The notes under the pieces were generated by a model. It was given only the letters and a program-made list of their open reading frames with translations, was not told the DNA's origin and made no database searches. DNA of 64,000 nucleotides, taken from assembly GCF_003205235.1 (NCBI RefSeq), contig NZ_QJSM01000018.1, positions 1-64,000 on the forward strand, read 5' to 3'. A program made the translations under genes and the position numbers. This DNA comes from Thermoplasma sp. Kam2015. GTDB lineage: Archaea > Thermoplasmatota > Thermoplasmata > Thermoplasmatales > Thermoplasmataceae. Positions 25,933 to 45,206 of the stretch are shown here, piece after piece. Within the stretch, counting starts at the first letter, position 1. Every line of letters starts with the position of its first letter.

Positions 25933-26541
25933 TTAATTTATAGATTCGCTCATGCTCAGGCTGAAGGATGGTGCACTGGTACCAGATGATATAGATCCAG
26001 ATCCGATCTCAAACGCTACATATATCGTTGTTCCATGCGCTACATCATCAAAGGTGAATGTTTCACTTCCAGGGCTTGCCAGTGAAAACGAATACACCGG
26101 TCCGGAGTTAGAGATAGTCGTTCCACTTATTGTAAACGGAGTTTCTGAGAGATAGATCGTTGTACTAGCTGGAAACGCACTGCTACCAGATGCAGCATCA
26201 GTCTTAGCGCTTGGGACATTAATGGTTACGTTGAATGTTCCCGGCATGGAGCTAGTAAAGTTAATGTCAAGAACATTGACTTCATATATGGTCTCGTTGG
26301 TCATGACTCCAAGAGTTATGTTACCTATCACTTCGCTTTCGCTGCTAGATCTAGCGTGCCACCCAAATCCTACGCTCATGTTCGCCGCCATATAGTTGCT
26401 TCCAGGCTGTATGTAGAATAAAGGTTGAACCTGTACCCCTGTTCCGCCGCTGAAGCCAACGACAAGAACGTCTGCAACCGCCACAGCCGGCAGTACGGTT
26501 GCAACCACTGCTACCAATACCAACATCATCTTTCTATTCAT
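25933..26541 (-). CDS. Secreted sequon-rich beta protein, filament-subunit candidate (paralogue A)
   Basis: The about 202-residue product starts at MNRKMMLVLVAVVATVLPAV, a Sec signal peptide probably cut after AVAVA to leave DVLVVGF at the mature N-terminus. The rest is serine/threonine-rich, predicted beta, and has five N-glycosylation sequons (NMS, NIT, NET, NFT, NVT); no cysteine in the mature part, no membrane anchor. Two ATGs compete; 26541 is preferred because GTGAGGAA precedes it and the paralogue at 40437 starts there. The first 35 codons are almost identical in DNA to paralogue B. YEVNVLDINFTSS is shared in protein but has drifted at third positions. Similar architecture to thread or TasA/AbpA-type subunits is an inference. 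Confidence 0.75.
   Translation of the reverse strand: MNRKMMLVLVAVVATVLPAVAVADVLVVGFSGGTGVQVQPLFYIQPGSNYMAANMSVGFGWHARSSSESEVIGNITLGVMTNETIYEVNVLDINFTSSMPGTFNVTINVPSAKTDAASGSSAFPASTTIYLSETPFTISGTTISNSGPVYSFSLASPGSETFTFDDVAHGTTIYVAFEIGSGSISSGTSAPSFSLSMSESIN
26437..26541 (-). repeat. 105-nt block nearly identical to 40437-40541
   Basis: The first 35 codons of paralogue A and of paralogue B at 40437-40541 (+) differ by eye at three third-codon positions only (AGA/AGG, GTA/GTC, GGG/GGA). Immediately after it the sequences diverge. This is a dispersed inverted duplication 14 kb apart. Confidence 0.9.
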
Positions 26542-26574
26542 TTCCTCACATCCTATTCTTACACCTGTTAAAGG

Positions 26575-35467: not shown

Positions 35468-38400
35468 TCATTTTATTTTCTTTCTTCTGGGTATTATAAG
35501 AGCGATGGAGACCGTTAGTATTATGCCCGCTATTATTACGGACGAGATCATTGCGATTAGACCAGTGGGATAGCTGCCAAATATGCCAGAACTTCTTACG
35601 ATCTGCGGGCCTGTCAGATGTTCAGCCATTGAAGTTATCTCAGCATGATAGGTCTTAAGATCTGATCTATAGGAAGATATCTGTGTCTGAACGGTGTTGT
35701 ATGTCGTTGAATTTATCATGCCACTGCTGTAAAGCACCTCAGCCTGCGCCTGAAGTGTATTGAGATCCTTCACACTCTGGTTAAACTGATCCATCAATGC
35801 AGCGATCAATGAAGACTTCAAAGCGCTGGATGAGGAATAACCTGTGGCAGTCGATGAATATGAGGCGATGGCTTTTTCTGCACTTGTCAGATTGTTCTGA
35901 AGATTATATACATCGTTGTAGACGAAGAATCCATATGTTGCAGATGCAGAAAGACCAGTTGGCGTGGAAACAGTGAATACCGCATAGTAGTATCCGTCGC
36001 TGAGAGATTCGGTGTTTATCTCTACATTTCCAGTTGTTCCGCTGCGCGTCAAGATCATCTGTTTGGAGCTGCTGTAAACGTTTAGTTTGCCCTCAATATT
36101 GCTACCAGGCCATGAGGAGGAATATGATATTCCAAAGGATCCAGAAACTATGCCTTTCTGGGATCCAGATATTGAGGCAGATGGATCTGGCCCAGGATTG
36201 CTAACAGGCAGCGTATAATGCCATATGATGGGGTGCTGTATATCGTATATTAGGAAGGTGAATCCGAAGAAGCTGAATGACACGCTCAGATCGTTGATAC
36301 CAGAAGCCGTCATATTCAGCATTATGGTCTGTCCGGGTGGTGGCAGGATCGTGAAGTTGAACGGTATGTAGCCATTTGATATACCGCTCACTGTGGTATT
36401 GGCCCTGCTATCGAAGAACAGCGGTGGATAGCTCACGTTAGTGTACTGGCCTGGCATGGATCCGATAGATATATTGACGTAGTTTACGTATTTCATATCA
36501 GCAAAATCTACAACTCCAGATATGTAATGCCCTGAAACGTAGTTGATGCTGGGTATGAAGTCGCCAGCCTGTGGTTCTATATATACGGTGACGGTGTTCG
36601 AGGTAAGTCCGTCGTAGGTAGCCCTGAGCTGGACTACCTGTGTGAGAAGTGTGCCGTTGGTCTCCGCAAGGAGTGCATCGGTCCAGAAGGCGAAATTGCC
36701 ACGCGCATCGGTCAGGAAGTGCCCTAAGGTGACACCCGGCGCGTAGGACGATACCGGCATCGTTGGGTCGATAAGGTAGAACTGGCTAACATTGACGGAT
36801 ATTTCTGAGACTACTGCGCTAGCTACGGGCTCCCCGTTAAGCATAACTTCCGCTGGTCCAATTCCATAGGTGTTGTAGAAGCCTGTCAGCGTTGTGGTGA
36901 ACATCGGTATTTCAACTGTTCCTGTCTCCGCAATACCTTCGGGATTCGTTACGGTCAGCACTAGGTTTCCGCTGGCCATAGGCTGTGAAACCCCAAACTG
37001 CTGGAAATCCCATGCCGGCATGACCACAGGCGAGTTCATCACCGAGACCAAGAAATAGCCGTATTCAGTTGCATTGCCCAGGAAGCTCAGCCTTGAATAT
37101 GATGGCGTATAGTTGAAGAAGCCTGTGGCATTGGGTGTTATCTGGGTCATGACGCCACCGCTGAATGCATCTATCATGTAGTTACTGCCGGCAATCGCGC
37201 CATTTGACGTCACTATCCTGAATGTATACATCTGTCCAGACGTAAGGGTTGTGAATGGGGATAGGCCAGACGGAGTCACCATCATCACGCTGAAGGCAGG
37301 ATTGATAAGCGAGTAGCCCTCCTCAGAAACCGTGCCTATAAGATCTTTAGACATTGCCGCGGCATTTATGAATCCAAGGCCCTGCAGGAAGTTCCAGCCA
37401 CTGCCGGCAGGATTGAATAAGGTCGCGTACCAGCCAGGAAGCACAGGATCGCTGGGCTCGCTGATGCTGAGGTTGAAGAGGTACCAGGAATAGTCGTTGA
37501 TGGGGCCATAATTGAAACCCTTACCTATATTTATCATATCGACGTATGGATTGGAAATTCCGGGGACGTTGGCGTTATAGGCATTGTGAGCTTCAAACAG
37601 CAGTGGATTTACATTGCCCATCTTTGGAGTCGCGGATGGAAGCATGGAAGCCTGTTCTTCTATAAGAGCCCATTCACCTGCAGTTATCGGTGTTGCAAAT
37701 GATGTACCTCCATAGAAGAGGTTCCATGTTCCGAATCCGTATATGGACATATTGAAGGCAGCCGGGCCGGATACTATTGGATCTATCAATGCTCCGGTGT
37801 CATACACGTCAAGGCCCGCTTCATACCATGGCTGCTGTTCCATAACTGATTCTCCGAAACCACCACCTATTTCTCCCTTGAAAGTACCATCGAAGCCAAA
37901 CCCGTAGCTCCAGTATGTGAAGCTGGCCAGGCCTGTCGCCGAAGCGACATACATCGGTATGGATATTCCAAATATGCTGTAGTTTACGATCACGTTAGTT
38001 AATGGGAACTCAACGCCATTCGATTCAGCGGTTGCCTGACCACCACCAACCGATGTTGCAAACGGCGACTGAGAGGGCATAGACGGTGAGGCGGCCATGG
38101 AGTTTGATCCCTCATCTCCCGAGGCAAAGAAATTAGTAACACCAACCGCGTTAAGCTGAGCAAGCAGTTCATCTTCAACCGTAACGTACATTGGTGATCC
38201 CAAGAATACTGCTTCCCATTCTGGAGCGCCGTATGAATTGCTTGTTATCGTTATGTTTGTGGCACCTGCGGTTGGTCCGAAAACTACGTTTCCGCTGGGT
38301 ATTGCAGAAACAGGATCGTTGTTGACAAGGTACTGCGCTATAAACTGATATGCATTATCGAAGCTGGAAAATTCAGGGTTAGGCACAGCTACAACGTCAA

Positions 38401-39601
38401 TGTGGGCCATAGGAGCCATGGCTGCGATATACTCTATATCCAGCTCGGTTTCCAGAGTCCATCCATAGTTGAAGCCGTCTATTATGCCGTCAAACACTGA
38501 CGGTATACCTACACCTATGTATGTGAGCCTGTCAGGAAGCTGGTTTGGATTTCCGAATACCTGCTGAGAGAACTGAGCCATATCGGACGGGATCGGGAAT
38601 CCAACCTCAATCACTGCTACGGTTATTCCCTGTCCAAGGTCGGGACTTTCGCGTATCGCATCAGCTCCGTTCCAGAGATTTTCTGCGCCGGTGAGTATAT
38701 GCATAGTGCTTGGAAATACGAACTGATAGTTGCCTAGATCAGATGGGAAGCCGAGTACCGGGCCGACAGCTACAGGCGTTGCCCACGTGTAGTTGGCATA
38801 TGTCAGGTTCTGTATGTTGTCTATTGACGGAATGTACGTCACGCCCGGGTCGTTGTTGCCAGATCCGGAACCAGCAGCAGAAACCATGGTGGGAGAAAGC
38901 CCATAGGGAAGCATAAGATCTGGCTGTGCGAAGAGACCATTCAGACCGGAGATGCCAGAGACATAATGTTCAAGATCGCCGGGGAGTTTCAGATCGCCTG
39001 TGGCAGCATAGAATGGTTGAGAATACGTGACGGAACCCTTCACAGCACTGCTGTTACCAAATAATGGATTCCAAATACCATTCGATGTGTACTGGTATCT
39101 GAAGGATTGGATCGTTGTATGGAAGGCGCTCTCAAACTGCGATACAGTTCCTGTTAGATATAGATCAAGGCGACTGGGATTTTGTGAAACATATATGCCA
39201 TAACTCTCGAAGTATTGGACAAATTCGCCGTAGACGTATGGACTCACACCAAACCTGTTGCCTATCTGCGAGGGAGTGAGAAACTGATGGTAGTAGGAAC
39301 TACTGGGATCATAGAGTCCGTTCACGTATGCCTGAATATCACCGCTGGGCTCAAGTGCAATGAAAACGCTTATAACAGCCGAGGGATCGTATGCGCTCTG
39401 ATACGGGATCAGCGAATATCCGGATGAAATGTTTCCAGTCTGCTGATTCAGTGATGATCCACTGAGTGCGATCAGTGGCTGCTCATTGGGCCCGCCCATT
39501 GTCTGCGGATTAAAACCGCTTCCGGCTACTGAAAAAGCCAGGAGAGACAGAGCAACGATCAATATCGCTCCAATCGTAAATCCTATGTTTTTCGAATTCA
39601 T
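35468..39601 (-). CDS. Giant membrane-anchored sedolisin/kumamolisin-type (S53) protease
   Basis: About 1,377 residues. A signal sequence (MNSKNIGFTIGAILIVALSL) is followed by a pro-kumamolisin activation domain (SSYYHQFLTPSQIGNRFGVS) and the S53 catalytic domain: E and D of ETELDIEYIAAMAP (about E386/D388), the oxyanion aspartate in FFASGDEGSN and the nucleophile serine (about S634) in YGGTSFATPITAGEW; GSGWNFLQGLGFINA gives the calcium site. About 600 residues of beta-sandwich-like repeats follow, then a helical stalk and one membrane helix with the basic end PRRKKIK. S53 enzymes act at acid pH; a surface enzyme degrading external protein is the natural reading. In-frame starts up to 39634 exist. 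Confidence 0.92.
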   Translation of the reverse strand: MNSKNIGFTIGAILIVALSLLAFSVAGSGFNPQTMGGPNEQPLIALSGSSLNQQTGNISSGYSLIPYQSAYDPSAVISVFIALEPSGDIQAYVNGLYDPSSSYYHQFLTPSQIGNRFGVSPYVYGEFVQYFESYGIYVSQNPSRLDLYLTGTVSQFESAFHTTIQSFRYQYTSNGIWNPLFGNSSAVKGSVTYSQPFYAATGDLKLPGDLEHYVSGISGLNGLFAQPDLMLPYGLSPTMVSAAGSGSGNNDPGVTYIPSIDNIQNLTYANYTWATPVAVGPVLGFPSDLGNYQFVFPSTMHILTGAENLWNGADAIRESPDLGQGITVAVIEVGFPIPSDMAQFSQQVFGNPNQLPDRLTYIGVGIPSVFDGIIDGFNYGWTLETELDIEYIAAMAPMAHIDVVAVPNPEFSSFDNAYQFIAQYLVNNDPVSAIPSGNVVFGPTAGATNITITSNSYGAPEWEAVFLGSPMYVTVEDELLAQLNAVGVTNFFASGDEGSNSMAASPSMPSQSPFATSVGGGQATAESNGVEFPLTNVIVNYSIFGISIPMYVASATGLASFTYWSYGFGFDGTFKGEIGGGFGESVMEQQPWYEAGLDVYDTGALIDPIVSGPAAFNMSIYGFGTWNLFYGGTSFATPITAGEWALIEEQASMLPSATPKMGNVNPLLFEAHNAYNANVPGISNPYVDMINIGKGFNYGPINDYSWYLFNLSISEPSDPVLPGWYATLFNPAGSGWNFLQGLGFINAAAMSKDLIGTVSEEGYSLINPAFSVMMVTPSGLSPFTTLTSGQMYTFRIVTSNGAIAGSNYMIDAFSGGVMTQITPNATGFFNYTPSYSRLSFLGNATEYGYFLVSVMNSPVVMPAWDFQQFGVSQPMASGNLVLTVTNPEGIAETGTVEIPMFTTTLTGFYNTYGIGPAEVMLNGEPVASAVVSEISVNVSQFYLIDPTMPVSSYAPGVTLGHFLTDARGNFAFWTDALLAETNGTLLTQVVQLRATYDGLTSNTVTVYIEPQAGDFIPSINYVSGHYISGVVDFADMKYVNYVNISIGSMPGQYTNVSYPPLFFDSRANTTVSGISNGYIPFNFTILPPPGQTIMLNMTASGINDLSVSFSFFGFTFLIYDIQHPIIWHYTLPVSNPGPDPSASISGSQKGIVSGSFGISYSSSWPGSNIEGKLNVYSSSKQMILTRSGTTGNVEINTESLSDGYYYAVFTVSTPTGLSASATYGFFVYNDVYNLQNNLTSAEKAIASYSSTATGYSSSSALKSSLIAALMDQFNQSVKDLNTLQAQAEVLYSSGMINSTTYNTVQTQISSYRSDLKTYHAEITSMAEHLTGPQIVRSSGIFGSYPTGLIAMISSVIIAGIILTVSIALIIPRRKKIK

Positions 39602-39731
39602 AAGAGACCATGAAAACATGTGATGTTCATTCAAATCCGTTATGAACGGAAAGAACTTACAGAAAATAAGCAGTAAAGTGGTATCTGAAATTCGCGCCTT
39701 TTCATTGTTTCATAGAGGATATATGAAAATA

Positions 39732-39797: not shown

Positions 39798-40244
39798 ATG
39801 GATCCTTCCGTTCCGCTTAAAGCGAAAGGTTCTGGGGCAGAAGCTGATCAGAAATTTGCCAATATTGCTATAAAAGGAGTTGATCATAGCATACCCATCC
39901 CATCCCATTCTTTTGACGTGGCAGTCGTGCTTAAGGATCCCTACCCATCAAAGAAAATGAAACTAAATTACATTGTTAGCAGGGATAAATTCTCTGAGGT
40001 ATACAGGGTTATCAGAACATTGATGGCTTCGGACAGGCCACTGACCAAGACAGAACTTCTGCACAGGAGCTGTATGAATTTTAGAACAGGTTCCTCTCTG
40101 CTTGTTGGAATGAAAAAGGCAGGCCTCATTGAAGAAATAAAAATAAGACACAGGATCTATATGCGCCTCACAGATCTTGGAATTCTGTTCTCACAGATGA
40201 TGGTGATCATCTCACCATTCATACTTTCCATATTTCAACCTTAG
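39798..40244 (+). CDS. Winged-helix regulator-like protein
   Basis: A 148-residue protein. Residues about 60-135 (VYRVIRTLMASDRPLTKTEL, SSLLVGMKKAGLIEEIKI, MRLTDLGILFSQ) form a winged helix of the archaeal ArnR1-like type, preceded by an uncharacterised 50-residue region and followed by a hydrophobic C-terminus (MVIISPFILSIF) that may touch the membrane. The ATG at 39798 lies about 25 nt after TATATAAGG and is preferred to an in-frame TTG at 39792. It is divergent from the S53 protease and is the first gene of the secreted-protein cluster; regulation of one or both is likely. Confidence 0.75.
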   Translation: MDPSVPLKAKGSGAEADQKFANIAIKGVDHSIPIPSHSFDVAVVLKDPYPSKKMKLNYIVSRDKFSEVYRVIRTLMASDRPLTKTELLHRSCMNFRTGSSLLVGMKKAGLIEEIKIRHRIYMRLTDLGILFSQMMVIISPFILSIFQP

Positions 40245-40396
40245 ATGTCATGAAATATCGTTTAAAAAGATGCTGATGCTTGATGATTTAAATTTCTCCG
40301 CCTTCCGGCATATCCTGAATGGAATATTTTTCTGTATGCAAGATTAGTAACGATACTACATATTATCTGTTCTTTTCGATTAAATATCATGACCGC

Positions 40397-40408
40397 TTAC
40401 TTTAATTG
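40397..40408 (+). promoter_or_regulatory. Shared dodecamer upstream of paralogue B
   Basis: TTACTTTAATTG is identical to the element in front of paralogue A (26575-26586). A small hairpin TGCTC-GAAA-GAGCA follows between it and the Shine-Dalgarno GGTGA, which is 7-9 nt before the ATG. Confidence 0.45.
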
Positions 40409-40436
40409 TGCTCGAAAGAGCAAACGGTGAAAGAAA

Positions 40437-40541
40437 ATGAATAGGAAGATGATGTTGGTATTGGTCGCAGTGGTTGCAACCGTACTGCCGGCTGTGGCGG
40501 TTGCAGACGTTCTTGTCGTTGGCTTCAGCGGCGGAACAGGA
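40437..40541 (+). repeat. 105-nt block nearly identical to 26437-26541
   Basis: The plus-strand partner of the block described for paralogue A; it covers the signal peptide and the first eleven mature residues. Three silent differences are visible. Identity ends sharply at codon 35. Confidence 0.9.
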
Positions 40542-40994
40542 CATGAAATAGGACCGGCTTTTTATGTGCAACCTGGCAGCAACTATATGGCGGCTAGTGA
40601 AGCTGCAGGTTTTAAATGGACACCTGACATGGTGAGTTCGACAGAGTTCATAGGAAATATGACCATTGGATACATGACGAATGAGACCATATATGAGGTC
40701 AATGTGCTTGACATAAACTTCACAAGTTCAACCTCAGGTACGTTTATGATAAATATCACGGTTACGAACCCATTCCCTGAAGGATCGTATATATATTTCA
40801 GCACCAGTCCTTTCGCTTCCACCGCAATTCCAGCCCATACCATGAACTTTACGCTCAGCTCAACAGCAAGCCAAACAGCACTGACATTCTCTGGTGTACA
40901 TAAGGGAGAAACCATCTACGTAGCATTCGTTATCGGTTCCGGTGCCCCAAGCACAGCGCCGTCATTCACATTGACAATGTCCGAGGCCTTCTGA
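40437..40994 (+). CDS. Secreted sequon-rich beta protein, filament-subunit candidate (paralogue B)
   Basis: A 185-residue protein with signal peptide MNRKMMLVLVAVVATVLPAV and predicted mature start DVLVVGFSGG. Sequons: NMT, NET, NFT, NIT, NFT. The body alternates strand-like hydrophobic/threonine stretches (TIYEVNVLDINFTSS, ETIYVAFVIGSG) and ends without membrane anchor or cell-wall signal. It precedes a signal peptidase gene by 117 bp and another secreted protein by 1 kb. The first 35 codons are nearly identical in DNA to paralogue A at 26.4 kb. A donor-strand filament subunit is the best structural guess; an S-layer-associated or binding protein is an alternative. Confidence 0.78.
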   Translation: MNRKMMLVLVAVVATVLPAVAVADVLVVGFSGGTGHEIGPAFYVQPGSNYMAASEAAGFKWTPDMVSSTEFIGNMTIGYMTNETIYEVNVLDINFTSSTSGTFMINITVTNPFPEGSYIYFSTSPFASTAIPAHTMNFTLSSTASQTALTFSGVHKGETIYVAFVIGSGAPSTAPSFTLTMSEAF

Positions 40995-41111
40995 GATTGA
41001 AATAGACCTATTTTCTTTTTTTGCGTATCCACCTCTGTTAGCGAAGGTTATCTATATTTTTTAATTTTTTAAATAAAAAACTATTTATTATTTGGTTATC
41101 ATGATGTCTTG

Positions 41112-41906
41112 ATGGACTTAAGGAGGATAATAGCTATTGCAGTGATCATTGGCGTAGTAATTTTTCTGACGTCTGTGACAATATATTCCGGGATATGGCC
41201 TCCAGTGGATACCATAGCTTCTGAGAGCATGACCCATTCAGACTACTGGACATACGGGACGATGAATGTCGGCGATATCGTATTCGTTAAGAGAGTATCA
41301 AGCGTTCCCGGTCCGGTCATAACCTACGTTGTTGGGCGACAAACTGGATTCTCAACATATGGCGAGTATGGAAATGTTATCCTATACAAGAATCCAGAAG
41401 GTCAGACAATAATACATAGAGCAATGTTCTATCTTTCCTGGGCTGATGGAATGCCGGTGGTCCAAGGGTTTCATAATCAGAGCTGGATGAAGGTAACTAA
41501 GATGTATATTCTGATATATGACGTTGGCTTTTCTCACAGAAATCTTGTTGTATATCTCAGAGGAATGGTTAATGAAAGTGGGTTTATTACTGTGGGGGAT
41601 TTCAATCTGGCTTACCGTGGAATATACAACTCAAGCCTGAACGCTTATGAGGCCGCAGATCAGAATGTTGGAATAACAAATGCCCCAGTAAATTCATCCA
41701 ATATAATAGGTATGGCATTCTGGGATATACCATGGTTTGGGCTCATAAAGCTCAATATTCTAAAGGCATATGGGCAATGGCCCTATTCGAACGAAGTCGC
41801 CAAAAATTCATACGATTATCTCTTTGCCTCCATCATAATAATAGCAGCTTTAATCTTCCTGCCATACAGCAAAATTTATGATTTCTATAGAAAACGTAAA
41901 AAATAA
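41112..41906 (+). CDS. Signal peptidase I-like protein of the Ser-His-Asp (SipW/Sec11) type
   Basis: A 264-residue membrane protease. Helix one is IIAIAVIIGVVIFLTSVTIY, box B ASESMTHS gives the nucleophile S39, NVGDIVFVK is box C, IIHRAMFYL gives H102 (a lysine in the bacterial housekeeping type), and ITVGDFNLAYRG around D163 is box E. A second helix near the C-terminus (YLFASIIIIAALIFLPYS) and a basic tail RKRKK end it. SipW/Sec11-type enzymes often process a few dedicated substrates; here it lies between two small secreted proteins. An extended middle region of about 60 residues between box D and E is longer than usual. Confidence 0.85.
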   Translation: MDLRRIIAIAVIIGVVIFLTSVTIYSGIWPPVDTIASESMTHSDYWTYGTMNVGDIVFVKRVSSVPGPVITYVVGRQTGFSTYGEYGNVILYKNPEGQTIIHRAMFYLSWADGMPVVQGFHNQSWMKVTKMYILIYDVGFSHRNLVVYLRGMVNESGFITVGDFNLAYRGIYNSSLNAYEAADQNVGITNAPVNSSNIIGMAFWDIPWFGLIKLNILKAYGQWPYSNEVAKNSYDYLFASIIIIAALIFLPYSKIYDFYRKRKK

Positions 41907-42030
41907 ACCACATAATACTTATAGAGATTTGGAAATACAGTTTCAATCCACGATAACTTATCATAATTACATATTTATTTAATATTAGTAATATTTATAT
42001 TCAGCATTGCATTGTTTATATTGTACAAAT

Positions 42031-42636
42031 ATGAATTCCGGTTTAAGAATCATGTTCTCGCTCTTCATAATTCTGATTGCGATAGCGCTTATAGCTATAC
42101 CAGCCGAAGGCGACGTCATGATAATATCTCACGCAAATGGAAACGGATTCCTCGTGCAGAAGCCGATCATCATAAATCTCACCAGCAATGCGACTGAATA
42201 TAAAGGGGCCACATTTGTATGGACTATAGAAAACGGTACTGTTTCTGGAAATTATATCAACATAACTGGTGTACTAAGAATCCATGTAAATTGGAACGTT
42301 TCTAACACAGATTATTTTCTCAACATACTATCCATAGGAAATGGCCTGGATAAAAATGCCTCGTTCAATCTTACGCTCGATCAGATAGCAAAGCAGGCGA
42401 ATAAAGTTCTCAACAGCAGCGAAACATCAGCTCTTTCCGTGTATATCAAGGAAGGCTATCAGAGCGAATCTTCGCTAGGTACTATAATTTACAATCAAAC
42501 TCTGGAAGGCCCGTTCAATATGCAGTATCCAAATTTCGTACCCTATTATATTGGTTTTTACTATGAAAAACCACCAGATACGAATAACAGCGTGGGTCAA
42601 TACCTTAATTTCACATTTAATTTTGTGTATGTATGA
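42031..42636 (+). CDS. Secreted sequon-rich protein, distant paralogue C
   Basis: A 201-residue protein with signal peptide MNSGLRIMFSLFIILIAIAL and predicted mature start DVMIISHANGNG, which parallels DVLVVGFSGGTG of A and B. About eleven NxS/T sequons are present (for example NLT, NAT, NGT, NIT, NVS, NQT, NFT), cysteine is absent, and the protein ends on the strand-like NFTFNFVYV. The ATG at 42031 is chosen over an in-frame TTG at 42007. It sits 124 bp after the signal peptidase, on the same strand. Likely a minor subunit or cap of the same structure, by inference. Confidence 0.72.
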   Translation: MNSGLRIMFSLFIILIAIALIAIPAEGDVMIISHANGNGFLVQKPIIINLTSNATEYKGATFVWTIENGTVSGNYINITGVLRIHVNWNVSNTDYFLNILSIGNGLDKNASFNLTLDQIAKQANKVLNSSETSALSVYIKEGYQSESSLGTIIYNQTLEGPFNMQYPNFVPYYIGFYYEKPPDTNNSVGQYLNFTFNFVYV

Positions 42637-42757
42637 GTTAGACAGAACAAAATTTAAATTCGCGATTGGTGAAGACATTGATCCCAAAGTTTTAATCGAT
42701 CAAAAACGTCTATACCAATGGAAACCTTTATAAATATTCTTATGGTATTTATATACG

Positions 42758-43156
42758 ATGACTATTGCTGCTATTTCAATCTCAAATTCAGTTGATGAAA
42801 AGATTGATCGATATCAAAAGGTATTATGGTTAAAGCAACAAAAAAATGTAAGATATGCATGGCGAGGTGAGTTGCACCTCCATCATAAGTGGAATCCATA
42901 CCCCGTAGCGGATCTGATGGAAAAAACTCCTGGAATATGCAAAGTGAAAAATGGATCACTGGATATACCAGTTAAAGTATGTGGGAATAAACCCGAAAGC
43001 ATAAAGGATTTGAAATCAACTAACGTTTGCATCCTGAATAATGTTGATCTGGCTTTTTTAAATGATACATGCTCGTATAGAAAACTATTCTTCGGAATGA
43101 ACATATGGTGCATAAACTGCTATTCATCATTACGAGGTAGTGCCTTTGAATCCTGA
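42758..43156 (+). CDS. Cysteine-containing small protein of unknown function
   Basis: A 132-residue product with seven cysteines, including WCINC near the C-terminus, and no signal peptide. Support is positional: TTTATAAATA at 42727-42736 is centred 26 nt before the ATG, the ideal leaderless spacing. Its stop overlaps the next gene by 17 bases, suggesting coupling. I recognise no family. The alternative is that this is an untranslated AT-rich leader of the membrane-protein gene. Confidence 0.5.
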   Translation: MTIAAISISNSVDEKIDRYQKVLWLKQQKNVRYAWRGELHLHHKWNPYPVADLMEKTPGICKVKNGSLDIPVKVCGNKPESIKDLKSTNVCILNNVDLAFLNDTCSYRKLFFGMNIWCINCYSSLRGSAFES

Positions 43157-43865
43157 TCTTTCATTACTTATCGCGTTGATTCCGCAATTCGTTATCTCGG
43201 CAATTCTGACTGGATTCGTCTTTCAGGCAATTACCAGTGAAAAAACCTTCATACAACCCAAGATCATTAAGAGAGATGCCGGTCATAAAAAGGAAGACCC
43301 ATCTATTCAAGTAAAGAAAGATCAATCAGATCTGAATCAATATGAAAGACTGAAGAACAGATCAGGGTTCCAAAATTTGCTGTTCAATCAGAATCTTAAG
43401 ATGCTATCAACATCAACACTTACGGCTAGCACGTGGATCCTCATTGTATATGCTATGCTTGGAATTGATAGATCTTCCCTGTTTATGCCAAACTACAGCT
43501 TTGAGATGAACTTTGCAGTTTATATGCCGCTGATCTCTCTTTTCGCAATTGCCATGATATCATCTTTCTCTACTATAGTAAGGCTAAAAAACATGTATCG
43601 ATGGTTAGGTACAATTTTGGCGTTGATATCTGTAATTGTATTTTTTAAATTGCCAGCTATGAAATGGTTTTTTTCAATCTACCCAGTGAACGTGGTCATT
43701 TATATATTCATTTATTTTGCGGGTCTTTTCATTGTTTTCCTGTGCTACCTCTTCTGGTGGAAAATGTATCCGAAGACCGTATTTTATATATCATTTTATT
43801 CCTCCATATTGACATATTTCATGCTGGTATCACTTATGATTCTCAAAGCAATACCAAAGTTCTGA
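43140..43865 (+). CDS. Six-segment membrane protein of unknown function
   Basis: A 241-residue protein starting at a GTG (or the TTG six bases on) after a GAGGT Shine-Dalgarno. One N-terminal helix (LSLLIALIPQFVISAILTGFV) is followed by a polar, lysine-rich cytoplasmic loop of about 50 residues, then five helices (for example WILIVYAMLGI, LISLFAIAMISSF, VVIYIFIYFAGLFIVFL, TYFMLVSLMILKAI). No transporter motif is evident. It closes the secreted-protein cluster and might be an assembly platform or a sensor; that is a guess from position. Confidence 0.68.
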   Translation: MPLNPDLSLLIALIPQFVISAILTGFVFQAITSEKTFIQPKIIKRDAGHKKEDPSIQVKKDQSDLNQYERLKNRSGFQNLLFNQNLKMLSTSTLTASTWILIVYAMLGIDRSSLFMPNYSFEMNFAVYMPLISLFAIAMISSFSTIVRLKNMYRWLGTILALISVIVFFKLPAMKWFFSIYPVNVVIYIFIYFAGLFIVFLCYLFWWKMYPKTVFYISFYSSILTYFMLVSLMILKAIPKF

Positions 43866-44211
43866 AAACTTCAGCAATCCTTTTTTAAGATGCTAAAAAG
43901 TCTCGTTAGTCAGACACTGATGTCAATAAACATTTTTACATATAAATTTTAAAATCGATTGCATTTAGAAAAGCTGTAAAAATAAATATTTTTAGGTTGG
44001 AACCGAAAGATATGTAGCTTTGATATTTAATTCCATGATAATCGATAGAAGGGATCTTCGAATTTTTTAAATGGCTTTTAACGCCTCATGGCAATGTAAT
44101 TTGTTCACAATGAATTTTTGTCTGACACCTAATAAAATTTTAATTTTTGGGCATTTTTCTAGATCAGCTATAATTACAAAATGTTTATATCTGATCATCA
44201 GGTGTTCATTT
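43866..44211. other. AT-rich intergenic, no gene
   Basis: The sequence has many stops in all frames, several TATA-like runs and no definite structure except CTGATCATCAG (44191-44201), a perfect odd palindrome between the TATA box (about 44183-44190) and the start of the following regulator. That palindrome is a candidate autoregulatory operator. Confidence 0.4.
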
Positions 44212-44511
44212 ATGGAGTCTTTAACTAGTATTAGCCCTAATAGAAAAAATAGAGATCGTGGGGACCTCGTATTTGGTATATTGAGAGAATTATACAACAC
44301 TGATGGACAGATAGGAATAACAAGACTGATATATAAAGTAAATACAAACTATAATATAGCACGGGATATCCTCGATATGCTTTCCAGAAGTGGCCTCATA
44401 GAAAGGAAATCAAAAAATGAAAGATCCGAGTTCAGGGTTACGGATAAAGGATTGAGATTCATCGAAGCATATGAGAGAATAAATTCAGTGCTGGGTCATA
44501 AAAAAAGATAG
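44212..44511 (+). CDS. ArnR1-like winged-helix regulator
   Basis: A 99-residue DNA-binding protein: DLVFGILRELYNTDGQIG, TRLIYKVNTNYNIARDIL, DMLSRSGLIERKSKNERSEF and RVTDKGLRFIEAYERI are helices 1-4 and the wing of the archaeal ArnR1/DUF-type wHTH. The ATG at 44212 is supported by GGTG 7 nt upstream; longer frames start in non-coding sequence. The same domain forms the C-terminus of the convergent gene at 44517-45206, so the two are likely related by duplication. Confidence 0.82.
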   Translation: MESLTSISPNRKNRDRGDLVFGILRELYNTDGQIGITRLIYKVNTNYNIARDILDMLSRSGLIERKSKNERSEFRVTDKGLRFIEAYERINSVLGHKKR

Positions 44512-44516
44512 ACATT

Positions 44517-45206
44517 CTATTTTCCCAATATATCACGTATGAATTCATAATCATTCGCGAGCAAAATCCCCTTCTGGGTTAATTCCACTAGATTCCTATT
44601 GGACCCTGATTTCTTTATACAGACTATGCCAGACCGCTCCAGATCTTCTATTATGCCCTTTCCCATCCTGTGATTTAGATTGCAGGCATAGAATAGTCTG
44701 GTCAATGGTATCTGATTTGAATTCTCCCTTATCGTGGATATCAGATCCATTATTATATTTGCGCGAGATCTTTTCCTCTGAGCTTCACCACCATCATTTT
44801 CTGGCATATCCTGAATGATATTATCAGGAATTTCAGCATCATTTCCTATACCTTCGCCCTTGCAGAAGATGCTGGGTAGTATTAGAACAGATATACCTTG
44901 GGACTTGAAGTTCTCTATTGTATCCGATTCTATCTCACCACAGGTTATGAGAAATTTCCTCTTGGCGCCAATATCCTCTGAATTATAATTGAATTCCTTT
45001 GCCATCTTCGAAATATCAGAAGAATTCGGGGCGATCATGACAGTGACGATCTCATTAAGTTCAGATTTGTATACAGCATCGAATAGATGATCTTTCCCAG
45101 ATTTCCCTCTTATCATTTCTCTGTATTTGATCTCCCACCTACCGGGTGTTATTGAAAGATAGTTCAAAACAGAAGCGTAGGGATCAAATTTAGTATGTTT
45201 TTCCAA
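44517..45206 (-). CDS. Two-domain protein: nuclease-like N-terminus plus winged helix
   Basis: A 229-residue protein. The first about 105 residues (DHLFDAVYKSELNEIVTVMI, KRKFLITCGEIESDTIENFK) have the strand-helix rhythm of a restriction-endonuclease-like or Mrr/RecB-like fold, but I see no complete D-ExK set, so it may be a ligand or protein-binding relic. After an acidic linker, residues about 145-229 repeat the winged helix of its convergent neighbour (RANIIMDLISTI, LTRLFYACNLNHRMGKGII, LERSGIVCIKK, LTQKGILLANDYEFI). Their stops lie 5 bp apart. Target genes unknown. Confidence 0.7.
   Translation of the reverse strand: MEKHTKFDPYASVLNYLSITPGRWEIKYREMIRGKSGKDHLFDAVYKSELNEIVTVMIAPNSSDISKMAKEFNYNSEDIGAKRKFLITCGEIESDTIENFKSQGISVLILPSIFCKGEGIGNDAEIPDNIIQDMPENDGGEAQRKRSRANIIMDLISTIRENSNQIPLTRLFYACNLNHRMGKGIIEDLERSGIVCIKKSGSNRNLVELTQKGILLANDYEFIRDILGK

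Follow-up and report, generated by a model that had tools for sequence, protein, structure and literature searches.

We analyzed a 64,000-nucleotide (nt) stretch of Thermoplasma sp. Kam2015 (assembly GCF_003205235.1, contig NZ_QJSM01000018.1, positions 1 to 64,000; hereafter the window), part of a 1.79-Mb draft genome (G000 in our comparisons), which carries a candidate surface-filament locus at positions 39798-43865. Open reading frame (ORF) calls bear out the one-strand gene order given in a first-pass annotation of the window: a winged-helix gene (39798..40244), the gene for a secreted protein, B (mature part at 40506..40994), an archaeal-type signal peptidase I gene (41109..41906), a gene for a second secreted protein, C (42031..42636), and a gene for a multi-helix membrane protein (43140..43865), all on the + strand. 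The spacers between B, the peptidase gene, and C are 110-130 nt long, and those 5′ of the peptidase gene and of C have AT-rich, TATA-like stretches, so that the genes form a tandem cluster with no evident single operon. A paralogue of B, which we refer to as A, lies at 25933..26541 on the - strand, and a third A/B copy is present on another contig of G000.

B is 185 amino acids (aa) long, A is about 200 aa, and the two are 62-64% identical. In both, as in nearly all of their relatives, a 23-residue signal peptide is followed by Asp24 (M1-A23 / D24); in B, the signal peptide (40437..40505, +) is of the Sec/signal peptidase I (SPase I) type, ends in LPAVAVA/D, and agrees in length and cleavage position with that of Saci_0406, the thread subunit of Sulfolobus acidocaldarius. 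A shares with B both the signal peptide and the first ~12 mature residues. Conservation across the A/B family is highest in this N-terminal segment; within the family, the N-terminal Asp, a G47-x-N49 turn, and N89-V90 are near-invariant. B lacks the features of type IV pilins: its hydrophobic segment precedes the AVA/D site, its mature N terminus is a predicted strand, and no long helix is predicted. Neither B nor C nor the membrane protein belongs to a family in Pfam or NCBIfam. The description of the secreted proteins as rich in glycosylation sequons applies clearly to C (11 in 174 aa, a count that none of 2000 shuffles reached) and modestly to B (5 in 162 aa, P = 0.02), but is not clear for A (P = 0.07); the cytosolic neighbors have 0-0.9 sequons per 100 aa.

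We modeled mature B with AlphaFold2 (AF2), using an alignment with 27 homologues from public genomes. The model (mean predicted local distance difference test score [pLDDT], 82.3; predicted template modeling score [pTM], 0.78) is a beta-sandwich outside its tail; residues 1-14 are largely uncertain, with pLDDT <50 for residues 1-3 and 6-14 and a strand predicted at 2-8, and these residues, lying outside the predicted sandwich core, are a candidate donor strand. A Foldseek search with mature B against 350,542 PDB chains gave only two matches at E<1e-3, the bundling pilus of Pyrobaculum calidifontis (7UEG; E = 1.1e-5, template modeling [TM] scores 0.56/0.52) and the Sulfolobus thread (7PNB; E = 3.4e-4, TM scores 0.59/0.53). 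These are exactly the two archaeal systems to which the first-pass annotation had likened the subunits, and a fold unrelated to donor-strand subunits, which would have spoken against that idea, was not what the model gave. In addition, when a hidden Markov model of 36 family members was compared with all PDB sequences, the best match was 7PNB (E = 0.032), with an alignment that begins at residue 1 and takes in the signal peptide. A donor-strand reading of B is thus supported by two independent lines, a structure match and a sequence-profile match.

C, whose start is best placed at 42031, is a distant paralogue of A and B, as the first-pass annotation had supposed. Alignment of the A/B and C profiles with hhalign (E = 3.1e-5, probability 73%) extends over nearly the full length from mature residue 1, and the A/B profile retrieves C homologues at E = 1.9e-9 and 1.6e-6. 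The predicted membrane protein occurs only near B-type genes: credible copies were found in 12 genomes, and in each of them an A/B-type gene lies no more than about 3 kb away (three further matches, full of stops, were discarded). Its alignment has invariant Pro, Trp, and Tyr positions. This constancy as a partner in all 12 genomes makes the membrane protein the leading candidate for a component that assembles or anchors the fiber.

Gene linkage was compared across 77 genomes of the family to which the host belongs, with A/B (family F0) counted as strong matches and C, the winged-helix proteins encoded at 44212-45206, and the membrane protein assigned to F2, F3, and F5, respectively. Eleven genomes have both F0 and F2 (Fisher P = 2e-11; by genus, P = 3e-4), and ten have both F0 and F5 (P = 4e-9; by genus, P = 0.01). 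The linkage of B-type, C-type, and membrane-protein genes, for which a synteny search in Thermoplasmatales had been suggested, holds across several genera and in shuffled orders; for example, four genomes of one genus have C-B-B-B-membrane protein, ASS_A1 has B-B-B-membrane protein-peptidase, and Thermogymnomonas acidicola has membrane protein-helix-turn-helix (HTH)-F14-peptidase-B. Within Thermoplasma, B, C, the membrane protein, and a second peptidase are all present in three genomes, and none of the four is present in two. The nearest relative of G000 in GTDB is a 'Thermoplasma sp.' metagenome-assembled genome (MAG); among the genomes compared, G003 is a near relative. Two genomes of the genus are single contigs of 1,564,906 and 1,584,804 bp, and the locus is present in the 1,564,906-bp one.

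The peptidase encoded at 41109..41906 has a transmembrane helix at both ends and intact Ser, His, and Asp motifs (SESM, IIHR, and GDFNL), and it lies between B and C, so that an endoplasmic-reticulum-type Ser-His-Asp peptidase stands between two related predicted fiber genes. It had been described as SipW-like; the Ser-His-Asp set is indeed there, but it is not distinctive, as every archaeal-type SPase in our comparison has it. The match to TIGR02228 (E = 0.002, 18 bits) falls below the cut-off of 51.85, as does that of the other G000 copy. That other copy (G000:C8:4463-5251) has a gene context conserved in five of five Thermoplasma genomes. The window copy groups apart from it, in a clade (support 100/99) with two Thermoplasma relatives, Thermogymnomonas, and the genomes G066 and G067. 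Judged from these sequences, the informative point about the peptidase is this linked second clade and not a resemblance to SipW.

Whether the second peptidase is specific for A, B, and C can be argued both ways. It might be an extra general signal peptidase: its motifs are common to all of the archaeal SPases compared, only one SPase is present in some of the genomes that carry B arrays, and in G069 and G016 a related peptidase lies beside alpha-amylase genes. Set against this are the strong separation of the clade, the adjacency of window-type peptidases to B/C-type genes or their usual neighbors in three Thermoplasma species, Thermogymnomonas, and two further genomes (the linked genes being of the B, C, F5, and F14 families in Thermoplasma, Thermogymnomonas, and G066), and the joint presence or absence of peptidase and locus inside Thermoplasma, where two species without the locus keep only the context-conserved copy. 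The peptidase is therefore not simply conserved without these neighbors, an outcome that would have undercut the first-pass annotation, and we regard a general role as a serious possibility but the less probable one. In the two genomes with the amylase association (loci L115 and L116), the locus-clade-related peptidase adjoins a MarR-type gene and alpha-amylase/GlgE-like genes, not filament genes.

Several known systems resemble the Thermoplasma locus in part. AbpA, the P. calidifontis bundling-pilus subunit, is a secreted beta-sandwich protein that polymerizes by donor strand; this and its relation to TasA are summarized in PMC9674648. AbpA is the best structural match to mature B; however, it is from a different phylum and shows no sequence-level match to B, and the Thermoplasma system has, in addition, a second peptidase linked to it, subunit genes in multiple copies, and a membrane protein that is conserved. 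In the thread subunit Saci_0406, a signal peptide spanning Met1-Ala23 precedes Asp24 of the mature protein, whose N terminus is conserved; donor-strand complementation, an Asp24-Asn57 isopeptide bond, and a fold-related neighbor, Saci_0405, are also reported (PMC9715654). It is the second structural match and the best profile match to B, and the two share signal-peptide length, SPase I cleavage, Asp24, and the conserved mature N terminus; both clusters also hold a second, related gene (Saci_0405 there, C here). In contrast, the YYY motif after Asp24 is absent in all B relatives, the sequence here being DV[LM][IV]xG, and B has no clear equivalent of Asn57, although N49 and N89 are nearly invariant; B is thus thread- or archaeal bundling pilus (ABP)-like only, and not a thread in the strict arCOG10215 sense. 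The thread report restricts threads to Crenarchaea, names no linked signal peptidase, and states that the assembly machinery is unknown (PMC9715654).

The gene arrangement itself recalls bacterial matrix fibers. In the sipW-calY1-calY2 genes of B. cereus and the TasA/TapA/SipW system of Bacillus, two related secreted fiber proteins are encoded around a dedicated ER-type signal peptidase (PMC10151520), and TasA has an N-terminal donor strand (PMC9674648). The Thermoplasma locus likewise has two related secreted proteins around a Ser-His-Asp peptidase, but that peptidase is of the ordinary archaeal type, unlike SipW, and no TasA structure is among the 50 mature B matches listed. In the literature consulted, the filaments described so far in Thermoplasmatales are type IV pili and archaella (CdiP and ArlB; PMC12448462). 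These are also N-glycosylated surface filaments of the same order, but they have class III signal peptides, a core of N-terminal helices, and an ATPase machinery; the Thermoplasma locus shows none of these features. We found no report in the literature of a thread- or ABP-type filament in Thermoplasmatales.

We consider it likely that the locus codes for a donor-strand surface filament of the thread/ABP kind. A, B, and the third copy would be the major subunits, secreted through Sec; cleavage by SPase I after Ala23 would leave an N-terminal Asp and expose the beta-strand that follows it, and this strand would complete the incomplete beta-sandwich of a neighboring subunit, in the manner of threads, AbpA, and TasA. 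The signal peptidase encoded at 41109 would be a second copy specialized to the A, B, and C preproteins. By analogy with TapA or Saci_0405, C is probably an initiator, a cap, an anchor, or a minor subunit of the fiber, a role suggested by its homology to B and its synteny only, given that it has no significant PDB match. Synteny likewise suggests that the membrane protein is probably an assembly platform or an anchor. Alternatively, A, B, and C could be non-polymerizing jelly-roll adhesins or carbohydrate-binding glycoproteins of an amorphous cell coat, with the Foldseek matches reflecting no more than a common beta-sandwich. All three are secreted and glycosylation-prone, and jelly rolls of carbohydrate-binding modules and ephrin receptors, though weak matches, come next after the filament structures for B and rank first for C. 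However, the next match for B has E = 3.3e-3 and a TM score of ≤0.34, and generic beta-sandwiches nearly all score ≤0.36, compared with 0.56-0.59 for the filament structures; moreover, the conserved N-terminal segment lies outside the predicted sandwich core, as fits a donor strand and not a ligand-binding domain. We therefore judge the cell-coat alternative improbable.

A further feature of the subunit genes, absent from the first-pass annotation and the most novel element of the system, is the behavior of their 5′ ends. Those of A and B form a 122-nt inverted repeat (26438-26559 and 40419-40540, the latter on the + strand at B), 13.9 kb apart and 93% identical. Identity is 97% over the 109 nt that code for the signal peptide and first mature residues, then falls to about 60-65%, and further upstream the sequences are unrelated. 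We scored codon identity over codons 1-26, at sites where the amino acid agrees and synonymous codons are available. Identical codons were used in 63 of 69 such comparisons within G000 and in 220 of 220 among five paralogues in G058, compared with fractions of 0.38-0.52 within each of five further genomes and a between-genome fraction of 0.36; in the rest of the gene the fraction is 0.45-0.49. The five G058 genes are in tandem (L099, G058:C76, 4791-11218); their coding sequences are 100% identical over roughly the first 80 nt, after which the heads are strongly diverged. A synonymous site in codon 23 (GCA/GCG) is the same at all three loci within a species and differs between G000 and G003 at all three. 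The B gene of G003 (L095, G003:C37, 1-171) is a mosaic, in which a 53-nt patch identical to A at 51 of 53 positions, and to its own orthologue at only 33 of 53, is followed by B-specific sequence (48/50), with private variants of its own.

The near-identical 5′ codons and the G003 mosaic indicate that gene conversion acts on the subunit genes, and the sequences point to a process in which the leader and putative donor strand stay alike and adjacent head segments are exchanged. We rejected purifying selection on RNA or DNA and assembly artefact as very unlikely causes of the alike 5′ ends, since, although G003 and G058 are draft MAGs and the G003 contigs break exactly in the repeat, different genomes encode the same amino acids with different codons, so that the DNA is not constrained, A and B share a contig on which each has unique flanks and carries a few variants specific to its locus, the codon-23 variant is fixed at all three loci in each species, and the A-like patch in G003 B abuts B-specific sequence. 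In a donor-strand filament, a leader and donor strand kept alike by conversion would let paralogues with different heads use one peptidase and enter one fiber. We tentatively raise the possibility, which we hold less firmly than conversion itself, of a conversion-run repertoire in which a single secretion-tag and donor-strand cassette is homogenized and heads are reshuffled, as an archaeal analogue of pilin and surface-antigen variation. At the A locus of G003 (L096 8005-8970, G003:C29), a third-copy 5′ half is joined through Ns to an A-type 3′ part; because the contigs are broken in the repeat, this join probably arose in scaffolding, and we drew no evidence from it. The inverted repeat in the window flanks ribosomal-protein genes and an S53 protease gene, and recombination between its arms would invert this segment and swap the A and B promoters.

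Several observations weigh against the filament proposal or limit it. No filament has been observed. TM scores of ~0.55 place the relation of the B model to the filament subunits at the level of fold, and B has no match at E≤1 to TasA/camelysin in Pfam or to SipW-cognate families in NCBIfam. The model of C is weak (pLDDT 66.5, from 8 sequences), and C has no significant PDB match by sequence or by fold. Four genomes with a B array and C have no second peptidase, so a dedicated peptidase is not obligatory, and the linked peptidase of ASS_A1 is outside the window clade. Of the seven genomes with at least three full-length ungapped copies, only two showed homogenized 5′ ends; the others are mostly MAGs.

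Thermoplasma are wall-less, acid-loving archaea without a surface layer (S-layer). If the proposal is correct, donor-strand filaments extend to Thermoplasmatota, and a thread/ABP-type fiber needs no S-layer pore; gene conversion of a secretion and donor-strand cassette would also be an unusual way for filament subunits to evolve. The second peptidase, C, and the membrane protein are candidates for the assembly machinery of thread-type fibers. As the locus is present in the single-contig 1,564,906-bp Thermoplasma genome, these predictions should be testable in culture.

Other genes at and around the locus include several winged-helix proteins. The first gene of the cluster (39798..40244, +) has weak Sso10a/HTH matches and a C-terminal hydrophobic helix (residues 129-147), and from its sequence it is a candidate membrane-tethered regulator of the locus; genes of this type adjoin the peptidase in G001 and lie at the B locus in G003. 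Downstream of the membrane protein are an HTH_45/Sso10a-like winged-helix gene (44212..44511, +; Pfam HTH_45, E = 4.5e-12 on an ORF starting at 44071) and a winged-helix paralogue of the F3 family (44517..45206, -), identified as an ORF and by family comparison. The F3 family recurs in the loci of G001, G003, G061, G066, and G067, and in G038 it is 10 kb away.

An ORF at 42758..43156 (+), listed in the first-pass annotation as a small cysteine-containing protein of the system, was dropped because it shows no sign of coding constraint and its frame is not kept in G001, where C is directly 5′ of the membrane protein. It is 82.7% identical to its G003 counterpart in DNA but 65.6% in protein, with differences spread over the three codon positions (28/19/29); in the same comparison, intergenic DNA at the locus is 82-87% identical and genuine neighboring proteins are 87-97% identical.

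Divergent from the locus is a gene (35468-39634, -) whose secreted product of 1388 aa carries an activation domain of the pro-kumamolisin (S53) type and, at its C terminus, a transmembrane helix; a homologue also adjoins the locus in G001 and G003. Elsewhere in G000, a second, older, and distant pair of B-like secreted genes (G000:C18:168210-169318; L092:8211-9318) lies between a major facilitator superfamily transporter gene and ftsZ, and the first gene of this pair has homologues in five of the five Thermoplasma genomes searched, including those without the peptidase locus.

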